Shown in pieces: positions 317 through 61,924 of a DNA stretch of 64,000 bases. The position numbers and the translations under genes were made by a program. Position 1 is the stretch's first letter, and every line of letters begins with the position of its first letter. Below the pieces are notes generated by a model. That model had not been told where the DNA came from. It did no database searches and worked only from the letters and a program-made list of their open reading frames with translations. Source of the stretch: Clostridium sp. (GTDB lineage: Bacteria; Bacillota; Clostridia; Clostridiales; Clostridiaceae); contig JARLHR010000042.1 in NCBI GenBank assembly GCA_031292145.1, forward strand, positions 59,451 through 123,450, given 5' to 3'.

Positions 317-408
317 TTAGGCACATGAAAGGAAATAATAGACCAAATTAATGCATATTTCGTATCAGGCAATGAGGCAAATTCTGGTCATAGCGGGCCT
401 ATTATTTA
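317..408 (-). repeat. Truncated copy of the dispersed structured repeat (copy F)
   Basis: The stretch starts with the repeat end TTAGGCACATGAAA, continues with AATAATAGACC, the inner motif GTATCAGGCAATGAGGCAA, and the apical motif TCATAGCGGGCCTATTATT, and then stops. Compared with copies at 20783 and 37318 it is in the opposite orientation and lacks the distal half. It lies directly after the acyltransferase stop codon and may act as its terminator. Confidence 0.7.
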
Positions 409-10972: not shown

Positions 10973-12859
10973 AATAGTCTCTCGGCAATCGCCGAGGGTT
11001 GAGTTTCAAGGCTTCCCTCAAAACTCTTTTATATCAATCCGCCTACTTTTGTGGGAGGATTTTTTGATTTTAGTCTATATAAAATAGAAATTTGTACACA
11101 CTTAAATATTTCTTATAAAAACACTTGACTTTTTGAAAGTGCCCCCATAATCGATAAAAAAGGTAAATTTCTACCTTTTAAAAATAATGGAGGGTTGTTT
11201 ACATGAAACCCATACTAATTTCTCATTCTATATATCAAGACTTTGTTCTTGAACAGCTTCGCATTCATTATTCTGGCGCAATCTTTGTCGTCGTCAATCG
11301 TGACTGGCCTATCATCACAAAATTTTGGATGACCGATTTATCTTGCTTAACTACTTTACTTCAAAATTTTTACGACCCGAAGGGTCCGATTCCTCGTGAT
11401 CCGGCATCTATGCTTCGCTCATTTCTTCTTTTTCTTATGACCAAGCCTGAGATGGGACTTACAAAATGTGTTGATGAAATGAAGCGTATTCCACTTTACG
11501 ACATCGTCAGTGGCTTTGAACCAGGAAATATCCCTGGCGTTGGCACTTTTTACGACTTTTTCAAACGCCTTTGGGCATCAAGTGAAAATAATCTTAAACC
11601 ACAAAAGCAGAAGAAACGTAAATCTAAAATTAAAAAAGGAAAAAAGGGTGAAAAAGCACCAACTACAACACCTGGGAAAATCAAACGTTTAGTCGCTTGG
11701 ATGATTCGTCATACGGATACAAAAACTTCACTTCCATCTGATAGACTCTTTGATTTTTTTCAATCTCAAATTCTTTCTGTTTCAGCAAGTCTAGGGTTAC
11801 TAGGAGATATTAACTCACTAAGCGTTGCAGGCGATGGAACACCTGTTGAAACCTCAGTCTATCCTAGAACTAAATCAACCTGTAATTGCCGTGCCCAAGG
11901 CATTACTGATTGCAATCACCCTAGAATCTATTCCCAACCCGACTGCAACTCAGGTTGGGATAGTTCAAGAGAAAAATATTTTAATGGCTATCACTTATAT
12001 ATGCTTTCTGCTGCTGATAGCTCTTATGATTTACCGTTATATCCAAGATTACAACCCGCTTCCAGGCACGATGCTGTTAGCTTAGTAGTCAGTTCTTGTG
12101 AATTCAGGCAACGCTTTACTTTGGGCACGATAGATAGAATGTTGCTTGATGCAGCTCATGATGCTGATGCTATTTATCATCTGTTAGATCATCAAAAAAC
12201 TGAACCTTTTATTGATTTAAACAATCGCAGTAAGAAAAATACTCCAACAAAAAGCGATATTAGTATTTCACCAAAAGGTATCCCTATTTGTGCACTTAAT
12301 TTAGAAATGAAGCCTAACGGCACGGATAAAGCACAATCAAGACGAAAATGGAGATATATTTTATCTAAGGGGACTAAAAATTCCTGCCCCACACTTTGTT
12401 CTAATGCTAAATACGGACGCACATTTCATACACATTTCAAAGATAACTTAAGACTTTTCCTTAAGACTTCTCGTGAGTCAAAAAAGTGGAAAATCATTTA
12501 TAAACGAAGAACTTCCATTGAACGCTCTAATAAACGAGAAAAAATCGATTATCAATTGGAATCTGGAAGGCATCGCTCAACTAAAATGTGGTACATTCGG
12601 ACATATGGAATTATGATTTGACAGCACATAGATGCTTGGTTTACTCACTTAAAAGACAGCTACGCTGACTTAAAATCATTTATTTTCCCTGAAAAATAAA
12701 ACATTACATTTTTTAACAATTAATATTGTGATGCTTATTTGTTATGCTCATTTTTAAATATGCTCACTTTCTTTACCACTCTATTGTTGTAACTTTTAAA
12801 TTCCCAGTTAATTATTGTAAATAATTCCTTCCCAAACTTCTGATTGCCGAGACCCTATT
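10973..12859 (+). mobile_element. Insertion sequence with DDE transposase (about 1.9 kb)
   Basis: The ends form an imperfect inverted repeat: TCTCGGCAATC at 10980-10990 and GATTGCCGAGA at 12842-12852, extendable outward to AATAG/CTATT (16 of 18 match). ATTA occurs on both outer sides (10969-10972 and 12860-12863), a possible 4-bp target duplication that could be chance in this sequence. Codon use is richer in G+C than the neighbours. The left end carries an internal palindrome CTCGGCAATCGCCGAG, and a hairpin GGTAGAAATTTACC lies before the gene. Family not assigned with confidence (IS4/IS5/IS1182-like by its DDE layout). Confidence 0.75.
11203..12699 (+). pseudogene. DDE transposase with a premature stop near the C-terminus
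   Basis: Open for 472 codons to a TGA at 12619-12621, then the same frame goes on for 25 more codons (QHIDAWFTHLKDSYADLK...) to TAA at 12697. The TGA probably replaces CGA (MIRQHIDAW). The DDE triad is present: D211 in GDGTP, D316 in LLDAAHD, and E440 in RRTSIERSNK. There is a lysine-rich linker at 133-150 and a cysteine cluster (CNC, DC, DC) at 227-248. The 5' end is intact, with GGAGG before the ATG. All catalytic residues lie before the stop, so a shortened but active enzyme cannot be excluded. Confidence 0.75.
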
Positions 12860-17475: not shown

Positions 17476-18519
17476 ATGGAATTAAATATTAATAAAAATT
17501 ATGTTTTGGACACAGCTAAAGAGATATTACAATTCGACAGTCCAACAGGGTTTTGTTTTGAAATAATGGATAAGATAAAAAACATTGCAGAAGGCTTTGG
17601 ATATGATTTTGAAACTACTAATAAAGGCTGTGGAATAATAACAATAAAAGGAAAATCGGAAGAAAAAATAATAGGATTATCTGCTCATGTAGATACATTA
17701 GGAGCTATGGTTAGATCAATAACTTCTGACGGGAAGCTAAAATTTACTTTACTTGGTGGTCCAATAGTTCCAACTTTAGATGGGGAATATTGTACTGTAA
17801 GAACAAGAGATGGTAGAAAATATACAGGAACATTTTTAAGCACGAGTCCAGCAGCACATGTTTTTGAAGATAGTTCAAGTAAGACTAGAGATCCAAAGAA
17901 TATGGAAGTAAGAATAGATGAAAATGTGAAATCAAAGGAAGAAGTTCAAAGTTTAGGTATATGTCCTGGAGATTTTATATTTATAGACCCTAAAACAACA
18001 ATTACTGAAAGTGGTTTTATAAAATCAAGATTTATTGATGATAAAGGTAGTGTAACATGCCTTTTAGGATTATTAGAATTATATAGCAGAGAAAATATTG
18101 TTCCAAACTTTACGACTAAAATATTAATTTCAAATTATGAAGAAGTAGGTCATGGCGCTTCATACATACCAAGTGATATAACTGAAATGATTTCAGTAGA
18201 TATGGGATGTATTGGGGATGATTTGAGCTGCTCTGAATATGATGTATCAATTTGTGCAAAAGATTCAGGTGGACCATATGACTACAATATGGTTACGGAC
18301 TTAGTTAATTTAGCAAAAGATAATGAACTTAAATATGTTGTAGATATTTATCCATTCTATGGTTCCGATGTAGGAGCCGCATTAAAAGGTGGAAATGATA
18401 TTCGTGGGGCACTTATAGGTCCAGGAGTCCATGCATCTCACGGAATGGAAAGAACCCATTATAGTGCCTTAGAAAGTACAATTAAACTTTTATATTTGTA
18501 TTTAGGCACAATCAAATAA
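17476..18519 (+). CDS. M42 family metallo-aminopeptidase
   Basis: A 347-residue cytoplasmic di-metal peptidase. Motifs: LSAHVDTLGA, RFIDDKGSVT with bridging aspartate, NYEEVGHGAS with catalytic glutamates, VDMGC, and HASHGMERTH with the last histidine ligand. M42 enzymes take residues from peptide N-termini. I use the ATG at 17476; a TTG at 17455 in frame has no ribosome site. The last codons (GGC ACA ATC AAA TAA) lie inside repeat copy A, so the native C-terminus was replaced or extended by the repeat end. It lies 28 bp after hisC. Confidence 0.85.
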   Translation: MELNINKNYVLDTAKEILQFDSPTGFCFEIMDKIKNIAEGFGYDFETTNKGCGIITIKGKSEEKIIGLSAHVDTLGAMVRSITSDGKLKFTLLGGPIVPTLDGEYCTVRTRDGRKYTGTFLSTSPAAHVFEDSSSKTRDPKNMEVRIDENVKSKEEVQSLGICPGDFIFIDPKTTITESGFIKSRFIDDKGSVTCLLGLLELYSRENIVPNFTTKILISNYEEVGHGASYIPSDITEMISVDMGCIGDDLSCSEYDVSICAKDSGGPYDYNMVTDLVNLAKDNELKYVVDIYPFYGSDVGAALKGGNDIRGALIGPGVHASHGMERTHYSALESTIKLLYLYLGTIK

Positions 18520-18666
18520 ATAACAAGTCCATTTGCTAGCCTATTTTCCATCATCCTACGTCGGCAAATTGACCTAATAGGCCCACTATGAGGGCAATTC
18601 ACCTCCTTGCCTGATGAAAAATATCCATAGCAACTTTGGACTTGTTATTTATTTTCATGTGCCTTA
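18502..18666 (+). repeat. Dispersed structured repeat, copy A
   Basis: 165 bp bounded by TTAGGCACAATCAAATAAAT and ATTTTCATGTGCCTTA. Outer helix AACAAGTCC / GGACTTGTT. Inner helix CATCA...GGCAA / TTGCC TGATG, interrupted on the left side by the conserved bulge TCCTACGTC. Next helix AATTGACC / GGGCAATT, and apical TAATAGGCCCACTATGA (18575-18591). It begins inside the coding end of the M42 peptidase. Confidence 0.88.
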
Positions 18667-18792
18667 AGTAAATAAAAGATATTAGGATTAAATTATCCTG
18701 AAAAAGCATCTGTCAAATAATCGTCAAGAATCATATTATTTATTGTAATTTTTAGATAAGTATTACAATGATATATATAAGGAGTTAGAGAT

Positions 18793-18891
18793 ATGTCAAA
18801 AGTTTTAAAGGCAATAAAGTATTTATCAATAGTTGCAGTATTTTTTGTTTTAATTTATATATTCATGTATTTTTCAATGATAAAAATATAA
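18793..18891 (+). CDS. Small single-pass membrane peptide (32 aa)
   Basis: ATG preceded by AAGGAGT at good distance. The peptide starts MSKVLKAIKY, continues with a hydrophobic stretch (LSIVAVFFVLIYIFMYF) and ends SMIKI. One membrane helix with a basic N-terminus. I do not recognise a family. The strong ribosome site and the perfect terminator-like hairpin 45 bp downstream argue that it is a real monocistronic gene. Confidence 0.6.
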   Translation: MSKVLKAIKYLSIVAVFFVLIYIFMYFSMIKI

Positions 18892-18936
18892 AGTAATTTT
18901 GCTACATATTTTCTTGCAATTTTTGTTATGAAAAGT

Positions 18937-18968
18937 ATGCTTTCAATAATTTAAATTATTGAAAGCAT
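18937..18968. terminator. Perfect 32-bp palindrome after the small membrane peptide
   Basis: ATGCTTTCAATAATTT followed directly by AAATTATTGAAAGCAT. A 16-bp perfect inverted repeat without spacer. It is a probable terminator or operator; there is no T run. Confidence 0.55.
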
Positions 18969-18986
18969 GTGTAAAAAGTTGCTTAG

Positions 18987-19106
18987 AAGTTTGTTGTAGG
19001 GAAATTAAAATTACGAGATTATTTTAAATATTTAGTAAGTGGAGAAGAAGTTGACAAAGGAAAGCTAGCACCAGATATCTATATCGAAACTTCTAAAATA
19101 ATTTAA
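18987..19106 (+). pseudogene. Remnant of a HAD-family phosphatase (beta-phosphoglucomutase-like)
   Basis: A short open stretch with no start, ending in TAA at 19104. It reads DYFKYLVSGEEVDKGKLAPD then IYIETSKII. HAD enzymes of the beta-phosphoglucomutase/phosphatase group have the same block, (S)G-E/D-E-V-x-x-G-K-P-A-P-D-I-(F/Y)-L-x-A, with the motif III lysine. The rest of the gene is missing on both sides, so this is a leftover fragment. Confidence 0.6.
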
Positions 19107-19231
19107 AAAGGTACCATTTATTGAAAACATGATATGTATATGTATATAGTGTTATAAAATGACTAAAAGTATAAAATTTTACTATAAAGATATACAGTAA
19201 AATTCTAAAATAAATATTTTTTTAGAATAAT

Positions 19232-19260
19232 TTGAGATTATGCGTATAAAATGGTATAAT
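19232..19260 (+). promoter_or_regulatory. SigA-type promoter of the wall-binding amidase
   Basis: TTGAGA at 19232-19237, a 17-base spacer, and TATAAT at 19255-19260; the start codon is 33 bases further on. Confidence 0.6.
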
Positions 19261-19292
19261 ATATATGGAAAAAAATAAGGGGAGACGATTAG

Positions 19293-20768
19293 ATGCGACA
19301 TAATAAATTAAAAAAATTAGCAATAATAACTACATTTCTTTGTATTAGCAGTGTTCCAGTAGTAACTTATGCAGCAGATTCTATAATAAATGGAGGCATA
19401 ACACAACAAAATAACATTGAAATTCAAGATAACTGGCTTACAGAAGAAGTGGCCAAGCAATTGAATAAAAATGTACGAGATCTTACGGATCAAGATTTCT
19501 TAAATATAAAGAAAATTGACTTTAGATACGAGAAGATTGAGAGTGAAATACCACAGGAGATCCAACTATTAAAAAATCTTGAGTATTTAGACTTGAATTA
19601 CTGTAGATTAGATAAACAAATTCCTGAATATCTAGGTGCTTTACCTAAGTTAACCCATCTTGACTTAGGTGACAATAAATTTGAGGAATTACCTGATAAT
19701 ATTAAACAAAAAATTATTAATGGGAATTATACATATTGTGATGTAGAAGGAAATAAATTTACTCTTGATGAAGGTTGGTACTTCTTAAAAGGTAAATGGT
19801 GTTATTTAGATAGACATGGAAAAAGAATTACAGGAACTCAAACTATTGGTGGCAAACAATATGAATTTACTGAAGATGGTAATGTACGAGAAGGTTGGGA
19901 AAGTGATAAAGATAATAATTGGTACTATTACGACAGAAATAGCGGTGAAGTAAAAGATGATTGGAAACAAATTTCTGGCATCTGGTATTATTTTAATAAA
20001 GATGGAATAATGCAAAAAGGATTGCAAACTATTAAAGGAGTTAAATTTTATTTTAATGATAAGGGAGCAATGATTACAGGTTGGCAAAAGATAGATAATG
20101 ATAGTTATTATTTTTCAACAAGTGGTGGGATGGAATATGGTTGGTTATCTTTAGGGGACAAAACATTTTATCTCGATGAAGCTACAGGTGTTATGGCTTC
20201 AGGTGAAAAGATTATAAATGGTAAAAAGTATGAATTTTCTAGCGATGGTTCTCTAATTAAAAATATATGGATAGATAATTATACATATGTTCAACCTAAT
20301 GGACAAACTGTAAACACCTATTATAATTATTCTCATTCAAACACAAATTATCAATTATTTAAATATATGACTAATACAAGTAATCAATTAAGTGTTGATA
20401 GCGCTGCACTTGCATTACATGGAGGTAATACAAGTAATAACTGTGTATATTTCTCTTCAGAAGCATTGAGAAGAATTGGTGTTAACATTCCAGTTTCAAC
20501 AGCTAATACTTATCAATTTGAGAATATATTAAAGAGTATGGGATTTACATATAGCTATGACTTTTCGCAAATAAAACCAGGAGACATCGTATTTACTAAT
20601 GGATATACCCACGTATATATTTTTATGTGTTGGGATACCGATGGGTATGCATATATTGTTGATAATCAAGGGACAAGCTTTGGGAATCAAGTTCTTCATA
20701 GAAGATTAGTGCTTCAAGATACAGCTACTACTGATAGAGCAACACATTTCTTCTATTATCCATATTAA
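19293..20768 (+). CDS. Secreted wall-binding protein with leucine-rich segment and cysteine amidase domain
   Basis: 491 residues. Residues 1-27 are a signal peptide with cleavage near VTYAADS. Residues about 85-140 hold leucine-rich repeats (LKNLEYLDLNYCRLD, LTHLDLGDNKFEEL). Residues about 155-330 hold seven or eight choline-binding-type wall repeats (GWYFLKGKWCYLDRHGKRI, NWYYYDRNSGEVKDDW, IWYYFNKDGIMQKG). Residues about 335-491 look like an amidase_6/NlpC-like domain with candidate catalytic Cys384 (NNCVYFSSEALRR) and His440 (YTHVYIF). It should act outside the cell, bound to wall polymers, cutting peptidoglycan peptide or amide bonds. GGGGAG precedes the ATG. It is a lone gene with its own promoter. 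Confidence 0.8.
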   Translation: MRHNKLKKLAIITTFLCISSVPVVTYAADSIINGGITQQNNIEIQDNWLTEEVAKQLNKNVRDLTDQDFLNIKKIDFRYEKIESEIPQEIQLLKNLEYLDLNYCRLDKQIPEYLGALPKLTHLDLGDNKFEELPDNIKQKIINGNYTYCDVEGNKFTLDEGWYFLKGKWCYLDRHGKRITGTQTIGGKQYEFTEDGNVREGWESDKDNNWYYYDRNSGEVKDDWKQISGIWYYFNKDGIMQKGLQTIKGVKFYFNDKGAMITGWQKIDNDSYYFSTSGGMEYGWLSLGDKTFYLDEATGVMASGEKIINGKKYEFSSDGSLIKNIWIDNYTYVQPNGQTVNTYYNYSHSNTNYQLFKYMTNTSNQLSVDSAALALHGGNTSNNCVYFSSEALRRIGVNIPVSTANTYQFENILKSMGFTYSYDFSQIKPGDIVFTNGYTHVYIFMCWDTDGYAYIVDNQGTSFGNQVLHRRLVLQDTATTDRATHFFYYPY

Positions 20769-20782
20769 GATATTAATAAAGT

Positions 20783-20946
20783 TTAGGCACATTCAAAAAA
20801 ATAACAAGTCCATCTGCCAGCCTATTTTCCATCATCCTGCGTCGGCAAAATACCATAATAGGCCCGCTATGATGGTACTTTGTCTCCTTGCCTGATGAAA
20901 AATAATCATGGCATTTTGGACTTGTTATTTATTTTCATGTGCCTTA
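20783..20946 (+). repeat. Dispersed structured repeat, copy B
   Basis: 164 bp from TTAGGCACATTCAAAAAAAT to TTTTCATGTGCCTTA, 15 bases after the amidase stop. Same outer helix as copy A (AACAAGTCC/GGACTTGTT) and same bulge (TCCTGCGTC), but the helix below the apical hairpin is ATACCAT / ATGGTAC instead of AATTGACC / GGGCAATT, a compensating change. Apical TAATAGGCCCGCTATGA is at 20856-20872. Confidence 0.9.
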
Positions 20947-20960
20947 TATAAAAGAAAACA

Positions 20961-21024
20961 TCCGTAATTAATAACAAATTATTAATTATGGATATTTTTT
21001 TATGCTTACAATAAGCATAAAAAA
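20961..21024. terminator. Two adjacent terminator hairpins
   Basis: First: TCCGTAATTAATAA / TTATTAATTATGGA followed by seven Ts. Second: TTTTTTATGCTTA / TAAGCATAAAAAA with a 3-base loop, symmetric and usable on both strands. Together with copy B they isolate the wall amidase from the CobW operon. The rest of the gap to 21207 holds A+T-rich DNA with likely promoter elements. Confidence 0.75.
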
Positions 21025-21207
21025 AGAATGAGTCAACATGCTGGCTTGTGCAGTGAAGAATATATATATCGCCATGGATTTATCATTTTATTTCATATGT
21101 CTAAAATAATGTAACTAAATTTATTCATATATAAGGATTAAATATAGTATAAATAAGAATATGAATATAGTTGATATAATGTATATGAAAGAAAGGAAAG
21201 AAGTTTA

Positions 21208-22149
21208 ATGAAAGTTAAAGTTGATATATTTTCAGGATTTTTGGGAGCTGGAAAAACAATGCTAATAAAGAAATTACTAATTGAAAAGGCTTATGATAAA
21301 AACACGGTTATTATAGAAAATGAATTTGGTGAAATTGGAATAGATGGGCAGATATTAAAAGAGTGTAACATTGAAATAAAAGAAATTAATTCTGGATGTA
21401 TATGCTGCCAGGTTTCGGGAAATTTTGGAGAAGCAGTGATGGAAATCATAAATAAATATAATCCAGAGAATATAATAATTGAGCCGTCAGGAGTAGCTAA
21501 ATTAAGTGAAATACTAAATATTTTACAAGGAGCAGCTTTTCAACATAAAATTGAAATCAGAAATATATTTACTTTAGTTGATATAAGAAACTATAACATG
21601 TATTTAATAAACTTCAAAGAATTTTATGAAAATCAAATTAAAAAAGCTAATAAAATTGTATTAAGTAGAAGTCAACTAGTAGATGATAATATAATAAAAG
21701 CTACAATAAATTCCATTAAAAAACTTAATAATAAAGCTGAAATTATATTTAAACCATGGAATAAACTAAATGCAAAAAACTTCTTTGATGGAAATAGTGT
21801 ACAAGACAAGGCGGAAGTTTCCTTAGTAAAAGATAATATCAACAAAGTTTTAAGGAAAGAAGCAAATCACAATGCTAAAGAAATATTTGAAAGCTATCCA
21901 ATAGACATTATGAGAAATGTAAACATACAAGAGATTAAGAAAAAATTTGAAATCATAGATAAGAACGAAAACTTCGGTAGGATAATAAGGGCAAAAGGTG
22001 TCATAAGAGGAACTGATGGAGTATACTATCAATTTGATTACGTACCAAATGAATTTAAAAGTAGAATTATAAAATGGTCCAATGTAAAAGTTGTATCGAT
22101 TATTGGAAGTCAGTTAAATAAGAAGGAATTAATGCAATTATTTAGTTAG
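21208..22149 (+). CDS. COG0523 (CobW/P47K) GTPase, putative metallochaperone
   Basis: 313 residues. Walker A GFLGAGKT at 10-17, ENEFGEIGIDG, and the metal-binding CxCC motif at C64-I-C66-C67. EPSGVAKLSEIL and a GTP-specificity region follow, and a C-terminal CobW_C-like domain (residues about 235-313, GRIIRAKGVIRG). COG0523 proteins use GTP to deliver a metal (zinc, cobalt, iron or other) to a client protein. Here it starts an operon with a second, shorter GTPase, a permease and a TIGR03943 protein. Metal not determinable from sequence. AGAAAGGAAAG precedes the ATG. Confidence 0.85.
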   Translation: MKVKVDIFSGFLGAGKTMLIKKLLIEKAYDKNTVIIENEFGEIGIDGQILKECNIEIKEINSGCICCQVSGNFGEAVMEIINKYNPENIIIEPSGVAKLSEILNILQGAAFQHKIEIRNIFTLVDIRNYNMYLINFKEFYENQIKKANKIVLSRSQLVDDNIIKATINSIKKLNNKAEIIFKPWNKLNAKNFFDGNSVQDKAEVSLVKDNINKVLRKEANHNAKEIFESYPIDIMRNVNIQEIKKKFEIIDKNENFGRIIRAKGVIRGTDGVYYQFDYVPNEFKSRIIKWSNVKVVSIIGSQLNKKELMQLFS

Positions 22150-22256
22150 TAACATAGCAAAGGATGATTAAATTTAAGGAAATCCTAGAAGGATTTTATA
22201 ATCAACTGTAAACTGCTAATTGTTAACTGTTAAATGAACAAAGGGGTGGTGCAAAA

Positions 22257-22892
22257 TTGAAAATACATATTGAAATTGTAACAGGATTTTTGGGAGCAGG
22301 AAAGACTTCGTTTATAAATTCCCTATTAAGTGAAAGTCAAGTAGAAGGGGAAAGGGTTTTAGTTTTTCAATTGGAACATGGAGAAAAAAAAATTATACAA
22401 TCAAGTAATAAAAACTTTTCTATAATTGTACAAGCGATAAATCAAGTACATGAATTAAAAGAGCAAATGATATATGCAATAAAGGAATACAATCCTAATA
22501 GAATTATCATTGAATATAATGGAACTGTAAATTTAAATGATTTACTTGACATATTAAATGAAAGAATTTATAAAGAATGCTGTAAAATTACTACAATATT
22601 TTTTGTGGCAGATGGTAATAATTTAAGGCAATATATTGAGAACATAGGAAGTTTTATGATTCCGTTCATTCAAAATGCACACATGATAGTTGTCAATAAT
22701 ACAGGAATTTGTAAAAAAGAAGTTCTAGAGGAGAGCATGCGAAAAATAAAAAATATTAATCCTAAGGCTTATATTTTGAAGGTTGATAATAAGTATATTT
22801 TAAGATCAATTCTTAGAGAAGCAAAAGTCTTAGACAATGGATACATTAAGAAATTAAGAATTAAATTAATAAATCACAAGAAGGATTATTAA
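22257..22892 (+). CDS. Short CobW-like GTPase lacking the CxCC motif
   Basis: 211 residues with Walker A GFLGAGKTSFIN near the N-terminus, then FQLEHGEKKII where other members have ENEFGE-like sequence. The CxCC metal motif is absent, and the C-terminal CobW_C domain is missing. IIIEYNGTVNLNDLLDIL corresponds to the EPSG block of the first protein. TTG start at 22257, supported by AAGGGGTGG eight bases upstream. Likely a duplicated, diverged partner of the preceding GTPase, perhaps forming a heterodimer; or it is degenerating. The stop codon is at the start of a repeat end (TTAAGGCACAATT). Confidence 0.75.
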   Translation: MKIHIEIVTGFLGAGKTSFINSLLSESQVEGERVLVFQLEHGEKKIIQSSNKNFSIIVQAINQVHELKEQMIYAIKEYNPNRIIIEYNGTVNLNDLLDILNERIYKECCKITTIFFVADGNNLRQYIENIGSFMIPFIQNAHMIVVNNTGICKKEVLEESMRKIKNINPKAYILKVDNKYILRSILREAKVLDNGYIKKLRIKLINHKKDY

Positions 22893-22937
22893 GGCACAAT
22901 TAAGAAAATAAAATTAGGAGGAAATAAGTAAGGGTGT

Positions 22938-23936
22938 ATGAAAAATTGCAATAACAAAATTTTGTTTTTTCTTATGATGAGTGTAACTACAATAATAATT
23001 TATATTTTAAATAAATATGATTCCAATTTATTCAATAAAGAAATGGGAGATTTTGCAAGCATATTTACAAGTATAGTTCTTGAAGCAATCCCATTTATTA
23101 TTATAGGAGCTTTAGTTTCTGCAATCATTCAAACATGTGTATCGGAAAAATTTATATCTAAAATAATACCTAATAGTAATATATTAGGGTATTTTGGAGC
23201 AGCATTAATAGGACTTGTTTTTCCAGTTTGTGAATGTGCTATTGTTCCTATAACGAGGAGATTAATAAAAAAGGGTGTACCAGTGGGGTTCGGAGTAACC
23301 TTTATGCTTGCAGTACCAATAATTAATCCAGTTGTAATAATGTCTACTTATTATGCATTTTACGATAAGCAAGTTATGGTGTTACTTAGGGTAATTGGAG
23401 GATTTATAGGTTCAATTTTAATTGGAATAATTGTAAATACTCTTGAGAAAAACAATCCTTCAATAGTGTTGGATTTTATTCAAAATGATACTTACTGTAA
23501 TTGTGGTTGCACTTTTTATAATGAAAGTCAAAATAAATTTAAAGCCATAATTCAACATGCAAACAGAGAATTTTTAGACATTATGGGATATCTAATCTTT
23601 GGAGCTTTTATTTCTAGTGTATTTCAAATTCTTGTATCTAATGGAAACATAACCTTTATTTCGAATAATAAAATATTAGGAATAATTATAATGATGCTTC
23701 TTGGATTCTTTTTATCTCTTTGTTCAGAAGTAGATGCATTTGTTGGTAGGAGTTTCTTAGTCAATTATTCACTTAGTGGAGTAGTAGCATTTTTAATTCT
23801 AGGACCTATGCTTGATTTAAAGAATTTTATTCTACTTATAGGAGCCTTCAAAAAAAGTTTTGTGCTCAAATTGAGTATAACTACAATATGTATTGTATTT
23901 TTAATCTCTTTTTTATTTATGATATGTGGATTATAA
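22938..23936 (+). CDS. UPF0718/DUF318 (YcgR/ArsP-like) permease
   Basis: 332 residues and about eight membrane helices. The core motif PVCECAIVPITRRL places a C-x-C in a membrane helix, followed by AVPIINPVVI, and the second half has LCSEVDAFVGRSF. A cytoplasmic loop carries CNCGC. The family includes ArsP organoarsenical exporters and YcgR-type proteins. The neighbouring GTPases and TIGR03943 protein suggest transport or handling of a thiophilic metal. Start ATG 22938; AGGAGG is 16 bases off, with a closer AAGGG, so the site is a little unusual. Confidence 0.8.
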   Translation: MKNCNNKILFFLMMSVTTIIIYILNKYDSNLFNKEMGDFASIFTSIVLEAIPFIIIGALVSAIIQTCVSEKFISKIIPNSNILGYFGAALIGLVFPVCECAIVPITRRLIKKGVPVGFGVTFMLAVPIINPVVIMSTYYAFYDKQVMVLLRVIGGFIGSILIGIIVNTLEKNNPSIVLDFIQNDTYCNCGCTFYNESQNKFKAIIQHANREFLDIMGYLIFGAFISSVFQILVSNGNITFISNNKILGIIIMMLLGFFLSLCSEVDAFVGRSFLVNYSLSGVVAFLILGPMLDLKNFILLIGAFKKSFVLKLSITTICIVFLISFLFMICGL

Positions 23937-23949
23937 GAGGATATTATCG

Positions 23950-24113
23950 TAAGGCACATTCAAAAAAATAATAAGTCCATCTGCCAAGCCTATTTTCCAT
24001 CATACTGCGTCAGCAGCTTGCCCTAATAGGCCCACTATGAGACCAATCTGCATCCTTGTCTGATGAAAAATAATCATGGCATTTTGGACTTGTTATTTTC
24101 TTTCATGTGCCTA
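23950..24113 (+). repeat. Dispersed structured repeat, copy C
   Basis: 164 bp, 13 bases after the permease stop and 42 bases before the next start, thus inserted between two genes that usually sit together. Outer helix AATAAGTCC / GGACTTGTT, inner CATCA / TGATG, bulge TACTGCGTC, apical TAATAGGCCCACTATGA. Confidence 0.9.
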
Positions 24114-24155
24114 AAGGTAGGATATTCTTAGTACAGAGAGGAGGCCAAAACATAA

Positions 24156-24932
24156 GTGAAAAGATTTAATTTTGATGAATTTTTGTGGTTCATAGTATTA
24201 ATATTGTTAGATTTATTTCTAATTTATTTAGTATTTACAAAAAAGATAAATTTTTATATAGGGAAAGACATGATTAAATACATTTATATTTCTATAATAA
24301 GTATATCAGTGATTGCAATTTTTCAAATAAGAAATATATGTACACCTAAAAGTTCAATTAATATTAAAATAAAATTACTGCCTATTATATTAGCAATATT
24401 ATTAGGTATAATTTCTGTTAACAAACAACAATCATTTAAGCATTTTGAATTAAATAATGAGCTTAGAGGAAATACGGCAAAAAGTATAGATAAGCAATCC
24501 TTATATGAACATGAGTTAGATATTGACATAAATAAAGGTAATATAAATTTGAGCAAAGATAGTAAAAATATTTATGAAGACGTTACTCAAAAAATCATAG
24601 TTGTAAATGAAAGTAATCCTATGATACTTGAAGATATAAGGTTAAATCCAGAAAAATACATAGGAAGAGAATTAGAAGTAAAAGGATTTGTTTGTAAGGA
24701 AGATTATTTAAATAACAACCAGTTTATAATAGGAAGGCTGATAATGACATACGGTGCAGCAGATTCTAAAGTAGTTGGAATAATAGGAAAATATGATAAG
24801 ATAAGTGATTTGAGTGAAAGCCAGAATGTAGATGCAAAGGGCGTGATTGGAATTTCAACTATGAATGATGATAATGGTGTTAGTCATAATGTGCCAGTAC
24901 TTATTATAAAAGATTTAAAGATAAGCGATTAG
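24156..24932 (+). CDS. TIGR03943/DUF1980 family membrane protein (YcgQ-like)
   Basis: 258 residues. Three N-terminal hydrophobic segments (about 10-30, 40-60, 70-88) are followed by an extracytoplasmic domain with NPEKYIGRELEVKGFV and RLIMTYGAADSKVVG, an OB-like fold of this family. It normally lacks the conserved C of the longer family members but keeps the MTYGAADS block. Family members occur with the permease upstream. GTG start with AGAGGAGG 11 bases before. Function unknown; a metal-linked role is inferred from context. Confidence 0.75.
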   Translation: MKRFNFDEFLWFIVLILLDLFLIYLVFTKKINFYIGKDMIKYIYISIISISVIAIFQIRNICTPKSSINIKIKLLPIILAILLGIISVNKQQSFKHFELNNELRGNTAKSIDKQSLYEHELDIDINKGNINLSKDSKNIYEDVTQKIIVVNESNPMILEDIRLNPEKYIGRELEVKGFVCKEDYLNNNQFIIGRLIMTYGAADSKVVGIIGKYDKISDLSESQNVDAKGVIGISTMNDDNGVSHNVPVLIIKDLKISD

Positions 24933-24944
24933 GGATCTGAAATA

Positions 24945-24983
24945 AAATAACAAGTCACAAATAGGTTGGACTTGTTATTTTTT
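24945..24983. terminator. Terminator (arms-only form of the repeat) between convergent genes
   Basis: AAATAACAAGTC / GACTTGTTATTT with a 12-base loop, then a T run. The stem equals the outer helix of repeat copies A and B. It ends the CobW operon (plus) and the ABC operon (minus). Confidence 0.85.
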
Positions 24984-25002
24984 TATTGTACCTTAATTGA
25001 TT

Positions 25003-37159: not shown

Positions 37160-37223
37160 TTAGGCATAATCAAAAAAATAAAAGACAAGAATACTGAGCT
37201 AATATTTTATTTCATGTGTCTTA
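37160..37223. repeat. Arms-only copy of the dispersed repeat
   Basis: TTAGGCATAATCAAAAAAAT to ATTTCATGTGTCTTA over 64 bp; both termini are present while the conserved core is missing. First of three related copies in the 536-bp gap before recQ. Confidence 0.65.
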
Positions 37224-40160: not shown

Positions 40161-40298
40161 TAAGGCATATGAAATATAATAATAAGTCTGTGATGCGATT
40201 TATATTTCCCCACAGACGAGGAAGTGTATCTCACTAATAGGAGCCTATTAGGAAAACATACTATCATGCTGACTTATCATTATTTTGAATATTCCTAA
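40161..40298 (-). repeat. Dispersed structured repeat, copy G
   Basis: 138 bp between TAAGGCATATGAAATATAAT and TATTTTGAATATTCCTA. It is inverted relative to copies A-D: reverse complement shows CTAATAGGCTCCTATTAG as the apical element and TTCCTCGTCTGTGGGGAAAT in the conserved right arm. Most diverged of the long copies. Confidence 0.7.
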
Positions 40299-46427: not shown

Positions 46428-46493
46428 TTAGGTATATTCAAAAAAATAATAAATCTATGATGTTTTTTGATTATTATTTTCTTTTATGTGCCA
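46428..46493. repeat. Arms-only copy of the dispersed repeat
   Basis: TTAGGTATATTCAAAAAAAT to TTTTCTTTTATGTGCC, 66 bp, outer helix only (AATAATAAATC / GATTATTATT). It lies 34 bases before the methyltransferase start codon. Confidence 0.7.
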
Positions 46494-46527
46494 AAGTATT
46501 ATTAATAAAAAATTGGGGAGATTAAAA

Positions 46528-48348: not shown

Positions 48349-48897
48349 ATGAGAATAGGTATTATAAGGCATTTTAAAGTTGATTATAAGAAAAATTATT
48401 TTATGACATCAAAAGAATTTAAAAAATGGGAAGAAATTTATAACAAAAGTAGTGTTATAAAAAAAGATATTGAACTTATGGGGATAAACTGGGATAAATG
48501 TTATTCTAGTAGTCTGATAAGGGCACTTATCACTGCAAAACATGTGTATAAAGATTCTATAGTTCAAAATGATTTGATTAGGGAAACAATAATTGATCCC
48601 ATATTTAAAAGCAATTTGAAGTTGCCATATTGGTTCTGGGCTGTTAGCGGAAGAATTGCTTGGTATTTCAATCATAAATCTCAGCAGGAGATTAAAAGCA
48701 TAACTAGAGAAAAAGCTAAAAAATTTGTTAACTTATTATTAAGTGAAGCAAAAGAAGAAGGAAATAATAATATTTTAGTAGTGACACATGGCTTTTTTAT
48801 GTATAGCCTTCAAAAAGAACTTAAAAAAAGAGGATTTGTAGGTAAATTAAAATATAGCCCTAAAAATGGAGCATTGTATTTATATAAAAAAGAATAA
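48349..48897 (+). CDS. Histidine phosphatase superfamily protein
   Basis: 182 residues. Catalytic histidine in IIRHFKV near residue 8 (RHF, where RHG is the standard), CYSSSLIRALITAKHVY supplies the second arginine, and VTHGFFM the second histidine. The substrate is unknown; family members cut phosphate from sugars, nucleotides or cobalamin intermediates. GGGATATTT precedes the ATG. It may share a transcript with the preceding gene (36-bp gap). Confidence 0.75.
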   Translation: MRIGIIRHFKVDYKKNYFMTSKEFKKWEEIYNKSSVIKKDIELMGINWDKCYSSSLIRALITAKHVYKDSIVQNDLIRETIIDPIFKSNLKLPYWFWAVSGRIAWYFNHKSQQEIKSITREKAKKFVNLLLSEAKEEGNNNILVVTHGFFMYSLQKELKKRGFVGKLKYSPKNGALYLYKKE

Positions 48898-48953
48898 AGA
48901 ACATGAAACAAAATAGGATTGCAGGTGGACTTGTTATTTTTATGAATGTGCGT
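48897..48953. repeat. Arms-only copy of the dispersed repeat
   Basis: AAGAACATGAAACAAAATAG ... GGTGGACTTGTTATTTTTATGAATGTGCG. Starts at the stop codon of the phosphatase gene. The right arm shares GGACTTGTTATTT with copies A and B. Confidence 0.6.
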
Positions 48954-48970
48954 AATATTCCACAGTATAA

Positions 48971-61742: not shown

Positions 61743-61763
61743 TTATAGAGATATATAATTAAA

Positions 61764-61924
61764 TAGGAACATGAAAGAAAATAATAAATAAAAGATGCGA
61801 CTTCTATTTTGTGTCAGACATGGAAACAAATTCTGCTCATAGCTAGCTTATTAGTATAATTTGCTGATGGAGTATGACACCAAATGGAGAAGCATGTGGA
61901 TCTATTATTTTTGATTGTGCCTTA
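61764..61924 (-). repeat. Dispersed structured repeat, copy E
   Basis: 161 bp, inverted: TAGGAACATGAAAGAAAATA ... TTGATTGTGCCTTA. The reverse complement shows bulge TACTCCATC, inner helix GTGTCA / TGACAC and apical TAATAAGCTAGCTATGA, where loop bases changed but the hairpin arms ATA/TAT remain. It lies 21 bases after the GH28 stop. Confidence 0.85.

Follow-up and report, generated by a model that had tools for sequence, protein, structure and literature searches.

In a 64,000-nucleotide stretch of a Clostridium sp. genome (contig JARLHR010000042.1, positions 59,451 to 123,450; hereafter the window, taken from a 6.34-Mb draft in 282 contigs) we analysed a dispersed intergenic repeat that is best read, and in our view quite probably, as a new family of miniature inverted-repeat transposable elements (MITEs) whose core is kept as a structured RNA. 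The element encodes no protein, has a main form of 158-159 bp that is present in many copies, and carries terminal inverted repeats. An initial annotation of the window had left two readings side by side, one as structured RNA and one as a mobile cruciform repeat; the mobile part of that proposal is borne out by target duplications, an empty site and short derivatives that carry duplications of their own, and the RNA part appears to be supported as well, albeit for the opposite strand.

The boundaries of the copies follow the pattern TWA-GGCACA…TGTGCC-TWA, with flanking triplets TTA...TTA or TAA...TAA and once TAG...TAG. Because T opposite T and A opposite A cannot base-pair, the outer triplets represent a direct 3-bp target duplication and not an extension of the pairing. 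Both ends are intact in 31 of the first 35 copies listed, and the flanking triplets of 28 of these 31 are identical, those with unlike triplets being the window copy at 61763 and copies L006 and L016. Across 1.23 Mb of the same genome, the middle base was common to both sides in 69 of 78 end pairs with T.A on both sides (T/T 35, A/A 33, C/C 1), a count made with a pairing procedure that gave a bonus to identical triplets; a scan of another genome without that bonus found identical triplets in 7 of 12 pairs, several of the 12 not being real elements.

All six long copies of the window, and its half copy, lie at the positions initially annotated (with 61763 for 61764), and there are also four short forms and isolated element ends (e.g. 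at 22890, 36111 and 40107) that were missing from that list. The strand listed below for copy A is that of the initial reading, the constrained fold probably lying on the other strand:

18502..18666, plus strand: copy A, full-length 159-bp element with a TTA/TTA target duplication
18505..18529, plus strand: left terminal inverted repeat of copy A, GGCACAATCAAATAAATAACAAGTC
18534..18632, minus strand: structured inner domain of copy A, alignment positions 33-131, which contains the covariation and the larger part of the A·C excess
18575..18591, plus strand: apical motif of copy A, TAATAGGCCCACTATGA, a short hairpin in itself
18639..18663, plus strand: right terminal inverted repeat of copy A
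20783..20946, plus strand: copy B, full-length, TTA/TTA
23950..24114, plus strand: copy C, full-length, TAA/TAA
37318..37522, plus strand: copy D, full-length and enlarged by a small-hairpin module, TAA/TAA
37448..37482 (approximate), plus strand: small-hairpin module with GCAGCTATGCTGC inside copy D
40161..40298, minus strand: copy E, internally deleted element with TAA on both sides
61763..61924, minus strand: copy F, full-length, diverged, target duplication lost
317..405, minus strand: half copy, right half only
24929..24995, strand unassigned: short form (ends only), TTA/TTA
37160..37223, strand unassigned: short form, TTA/TTA
46428..46495, strand unassigned: short form, duplication lost
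48895..48955, strand unassigned: short form, TAA/TAA

Copy A lies at the end of a gene for an M42 aminopeptidase, where bases 18502-18519 of the window replace the last residues of the protein, so that the element supplies the stop codon. The gene was found in 8 of the 10 genomes searched and copy A is absent from all eight, giving an empty site at base level; with copy A and one TTA removed, the gene in the window ends in ...LLYLYLSK, and that of the relative G032 in ...LLYLYLTK. Between the two genes that flank copy B, the element is likewise absent in all five aligned relatives, with a spacer too diverged for a base-level site. Furthermore, short forms of the element are internal deletions that retain the ends, and 20 of them, chosen for having duplications, are flanked by identical triplets. 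Given the 3-bp target duplications, the empty site in 8 of 8 orthologues and the short deletion derivatives with duplications, we are very confident that the element is a MITE, i.e. a non-autonomous inverted-repeat transposon.

The repeat is far too frequent to be due to chance, since the pattern of its ends, allowing up to 3 mismatches, gave 685 matches in the genome and the reversed pattern only 7. A covariance model built from 24 copies, as the initial annotation had suggested, returned at least 150 matches genome-wide. In the 1.23 Mb it gave 122 matches that represent 80 distinct places, of which 38 are about full length, 10 longer and 32 shorter. Extrapolation puts the genome copy number at about 400, i.e. 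several hundred, an estimate that leans high because the 1.23 Mb consists of contigs with already known matches. The copies fall into length classes of about 54-70, 112, 158-159, 200 and 225-268 bp.

The fold of the element is maintained by selection. In the 24 copies, 93.7% of the cells in paired columns are paired and 20 of the 52 pairs change on both sides, and none of 500 shuffles reached either value; sliding the partner by 1-3 bases abolished the covariation signal. In a larger set of 99 copies, 7 of the 52 pairs were significant (E<0.05) and none among all remaining pairs, using a tree-based null of our own in which 60 rounds of random placement on the tree kept the number of changes per column. 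Neither this set nor the 118-copy set used below includes interrupted, composite or short copies, and identical copies were counted once. Thus, the proposal that the paired arms change together holds, the changes are compensatory, and the centres of the copies are homologous and covarying, not those of unrelated terminators. One helix had been misassigned: GTGTCA/TGACAC, attributed to copies D and E, occurs in copy F, copy D having GCGTCA/TGACAC and copy E being without most of the region.

The further proposal that the unpaired parts stay fixed is only partly correct. Across the 99 copies the ends change least (2.9 changes per site), followed by the apical region (5.0), and the left bulge is as variable as the inner stems (7.1 vs 5.9). 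The apical motif forms a hairpin itself (ATAG/CTAT), and its conservation in some copies from relatives (L149-L193) is a matter of choice, as these were retrieved by that very motif. The opinion that no named family fits agrees with our Rfam searches, which gave no match in the window at the curated score and, at loose thresholds, chance-level matches only.

Deviations from Watson-Crick pairing indicate which strand may be constrained. Counted over the tree of 99 copies on the strand that had been folded initially, changes from a Watson-Crick pair to A·C outnumber those to G·T by 106 to 47 (p 2e-6); by pairs, 30 are skewed towards A·C against 10 (p 0.002), and the skew holds for all four starting pairs and is seen separately in the window's own genome and in relatives. 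A set of 19 new copies from one further species gave 49:27 (p 0.015), bringing all 118 copies to 154:72. As A·C on one strand is G·U on the other, these changes correspond to tolerated wobbles on the complementary strand, and the strand folded in the initial annotation is probably not the constrained one. A mutational cause is disfavoured by the excess of T to C over A to G at paired sites, the reverse of what the unpaired spectrum predicts, and by the occurrence of copies in both orientations to genes. Moreover, on the complementary strand the inner loops are 66% purine, and 82 of 118 copies have at least six consecutive T directly 3' of the outer stem, compared with 8 of 118 on the other strand. 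Together these features lead us to favour, with some reservation, selection of the inner domain as RNA on the complementary strand.

Transcription may be connected with the skew: on terminal branches it amounts to 82:28 for elements entered by transcription from the gene upstream of the complementary strand, compared with 42:33 for the others (p 0.011). We regard this link as a lead.

A number of observations weigh against a transposon with an RNA core. At paired sites, G to A exceeds C to T by no more than the unpaired spectrum allows (p 0.14), so that mutation may account for some of the skew; the parsimony counts also treat changes in related copies as independent events. The skew does not differ significantly between the inner domain (107:44) and the ends (47:28; p 0.23). 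Folding energy is lower on the complementary strand in 96 of 99 copies, but shuffled inner domains reproduce -5.1 of the -8.8 kcal/mol strand difference, which is therefore mostly a matter of composition, and for this reason we do not use it as main evidence. The transcription test was suggested by a first sample of 22 copies, and when that sample is left out its p value is 0.055. No promoters stand out in the region (41 sites vs 45.6 expected). The 59 classified copies show no orientation bias relative to genes (20 co-directional, 23 antisense), such as a role as host terminator would lead one to expect. Lastly, a transposase with matching ends was not found in the loci and stretches searched.

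The trans-acting enzyme that the initial annotation had invoked was looked for in several families. A scan of 30 PF01609 loci for these ends revealed no partner. One of them, L091 (G000:C75:27790-31542), seemed to be bracketed and was rejected as a separate insertion sequence with inverted repeats of its own; this insertion sequence encodes a 444-aa DDE_Tnp_1 transposase and appears to sit within a family member. PF07592 gave no hits in 13 genomes, with a silent control, so that absence is not shown; PF13359 was found in none of 14 genomes, PF13586 in 2 of 14, with ends different from those of the element, and PF13936 at three loci, none with these ends. IS30, tried as a partner on the strength of an ATTCAA motif in its ends, was not supported. 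Scanning the 1.23 Mb and a further 0.8 Mb for units bracketed by matching ends revealed no autonomous partner, and the long units between such ends were discarded as ordinary genes beside end fragments, e.g. seryl-tRNA synthetase. At that locus (G000:C146:94086-96348, L209) the ends on either side of the gene face inwards and both have TTA, but they are probably unrelated fragments. In the window itself, 11203-12621 encodes a protein of 472 aa that weakly matches DDE_Tnp_1 and is surrounded by inverted repeats around TCTCGGCAATC; this is an insertion sequence whose ends are unrelated to the element.

For a MITE with an RNA core we envisage that a transposase supplied in trans, presumably of DDE type, would cut and insert the element at TWA, copying three target bases, and that the approximately 25 bp at each end would be the sites recognised by the enzyme. 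The domain of about 100 nt between the ends would not be needed for movement, because forms lacking it also carry duplications. It would instead be kept as a single-strand fold on the complementary strand, most likely as RNA in read-through transcripts, as suggested by three features of that strand: the skew in wobbles, loops rich in purines and a T-run at its 3' end. The likeliest role of such an RNA would be to shape, end or stabilise its host transcript, making insertions tolerable. A more far-reaching version, which we put forward only tentatively, is that the inner domain is a functional RNA cargo unneeded for movement, and that it represents a new class of structured RNA that is mobile. 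Such an RNA would be active in read-through transcripts of one strand, would earn the element tolerance from the host or act on host genes, and could acquire additional RNA modules, namely the units of 75 nt and 40 nt, at fixed places.

It seems rather unlikely that we are dealing with an ordinary MITE whose hairpin is kept as DNA only, with cruciform extrusion and template switching correcting the arms against each other without any RNA. In the tree of 118 copies, 75 double changes from one Watson-Crick pair to another are each confined to a single branch, as palindrome correction of this kind would produce them, and the short forms show that the ends suffice for movement. However, as copies lie in both orientations to genes, arm correction gives no reason for the preference for A·C on one strand, though a single-stranded DNA intermediate of one strand would also predict a skew. 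We consider it improbable that the copies are plain bidirectional terminators with unrelated centres spread by a transposon. The T-run that comes after the stem on the complementary strand would suit this idea, as would the intergenic location of all 59 classified long copies, many of them within tens of bases of a stop codon; against it stand not only the homologous, covarying centres but also the absence of an excess of the orientation that puts the T-run behind the upstream gene (20 vs 23), and a terminator scan marked no copy in 18300-24400, though its loop limit excludes such long hairpins.

Copying of the element through RNA by a reverse transcriptase acting in trans would account for a one-strand RNA constraint next to a 3-bp duplication and for the missing DDE partner, but a DNA transposase fits better with the symmetry of the inverted ends and with derivatives of some 55-70 bp that retain the ends alone, and we give this possibility very little weight. 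Least probable is a structured non-coding RNA family that merely occurs in many copies: the significant covariation and the strand skew are what it would show, but the direct TWA repeats, the sites lacking the element in orthologues, the end-only derivatives and the lack of orientation to genes refute it as a full explanation.

The longer forms of the element are modular. The left bulge carries a unit of about 75 nt, and a small hairpin unit with GCAGCTATGCTGC occurs at two fixed places, near positions 38 and 126, also in L013, L027 and L063; in the 1.23 Mb, none of the 15 copies of the small palindrome is more than 350 bases away from an element end. The repeat of about 75 nt consists of two small hairpins, CAAATCATAGATTTG and CGCTTACTCAGCGAACG. 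It also stands alone in other Clostridium genomes (L271 1501-1574, L272 1501-1573, L273 59-131) and is nested at one place in an element (inside L234 2661-2931).

With a full-length copy as query, 13 of the 35 other Clostridium genomes searched gave matches; the 23 genomes from outside the genus gave a single weak match, which does not fit the covariance model. Records with the apical motif include, among the matches listed, C. beijerinckii, C. chromiireducens, C. uliginosum, C. puniceum and C. neonatale, and the four non-Clostridium records with the 17-base motif among the matches listed do not fit the model. No match to the element was found in the phages, plasmids and viral contigs searched.

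Our literature searches found no paper on this Clostridium family, and two reviews of bacterial MITEs (PMC2229807, PMC10969869) do not mention Clostridium in their main text. Evidence that MITE hairpins work as RNA in bacteria has so far been confined to a few cases, such as ERIC and Correia (PMC2229807, PMC10969869). If the constraint on one strand is true, hundreds of copies of one structured RNA would lie between genes across Clostridium species including C. beijerinckii, and this RNA would sit within many transcripts. On a methodological note, counting the drift to A·C versus G·T at the paired positions of a dispersed hairpin offers a cheap test for RNA selection, and for its strand, in bacterial MITEs.

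A 3-bp duplication of TWA or TNA and ends starting with GG are known from the IS5 superfamily (IS1031 and ISL2 groups) and from eukaryotic PIF/Harbinger-Tourist MITEs, and the Clostridium element has both traits, its duplication being of the TWA/TNA type seen in the IS5 superfamily (ISL2/IS1031 type); an IS5-superfamily transposase with these ends was not found in the genomes searched. IS200/IS605 and REP/RAYT elements make no target duplication, and the duplications seen here speak against membership in either. IStrons and other RNA-bearing transposons are likewise mobile DNA with a structured RNA, but unlike IStrons the Clostridium element has no group I intron match in Rfam, is far too small and makes a TWA duplication.

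The closest parallels are other small repeats. According to PMC3049150, BOX, RUP and SPRITE of Streptococcus pneumoniae are intergenic, MITE-like repeats in many copies, tightly folded with paired ends, and BOX is modular (67-637 bp), transcribed and flanked by target duplications. The Clostridium element resembles them in being intergenic, multi-copy, MITE-like and folded with paired ends, and resembles BOX in its target duplications; it differs in sequence and host, and RUP targets TA whereas the Clostridium element targets a 3-bp TWA (PMC3049150). ERIC and Correia/NEMIS are small MITEs whose transcript forms a long stem-loop; the effects of ERIC on mRNA depend on orientation, and RNase III cuts Correia transcripts (PMC2229807, PMC10969869). 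They belong to other phyla and have other ends, and for the Clostridium element the working strand is proposed from the wobble skew. Thus, the kind of element is already known from BOX, ERIC and Correia, whereas the family, its construction from modules, among them a 75-nt unit that can be separated, and the evidence on the strand are, to the extent of our searches, new.

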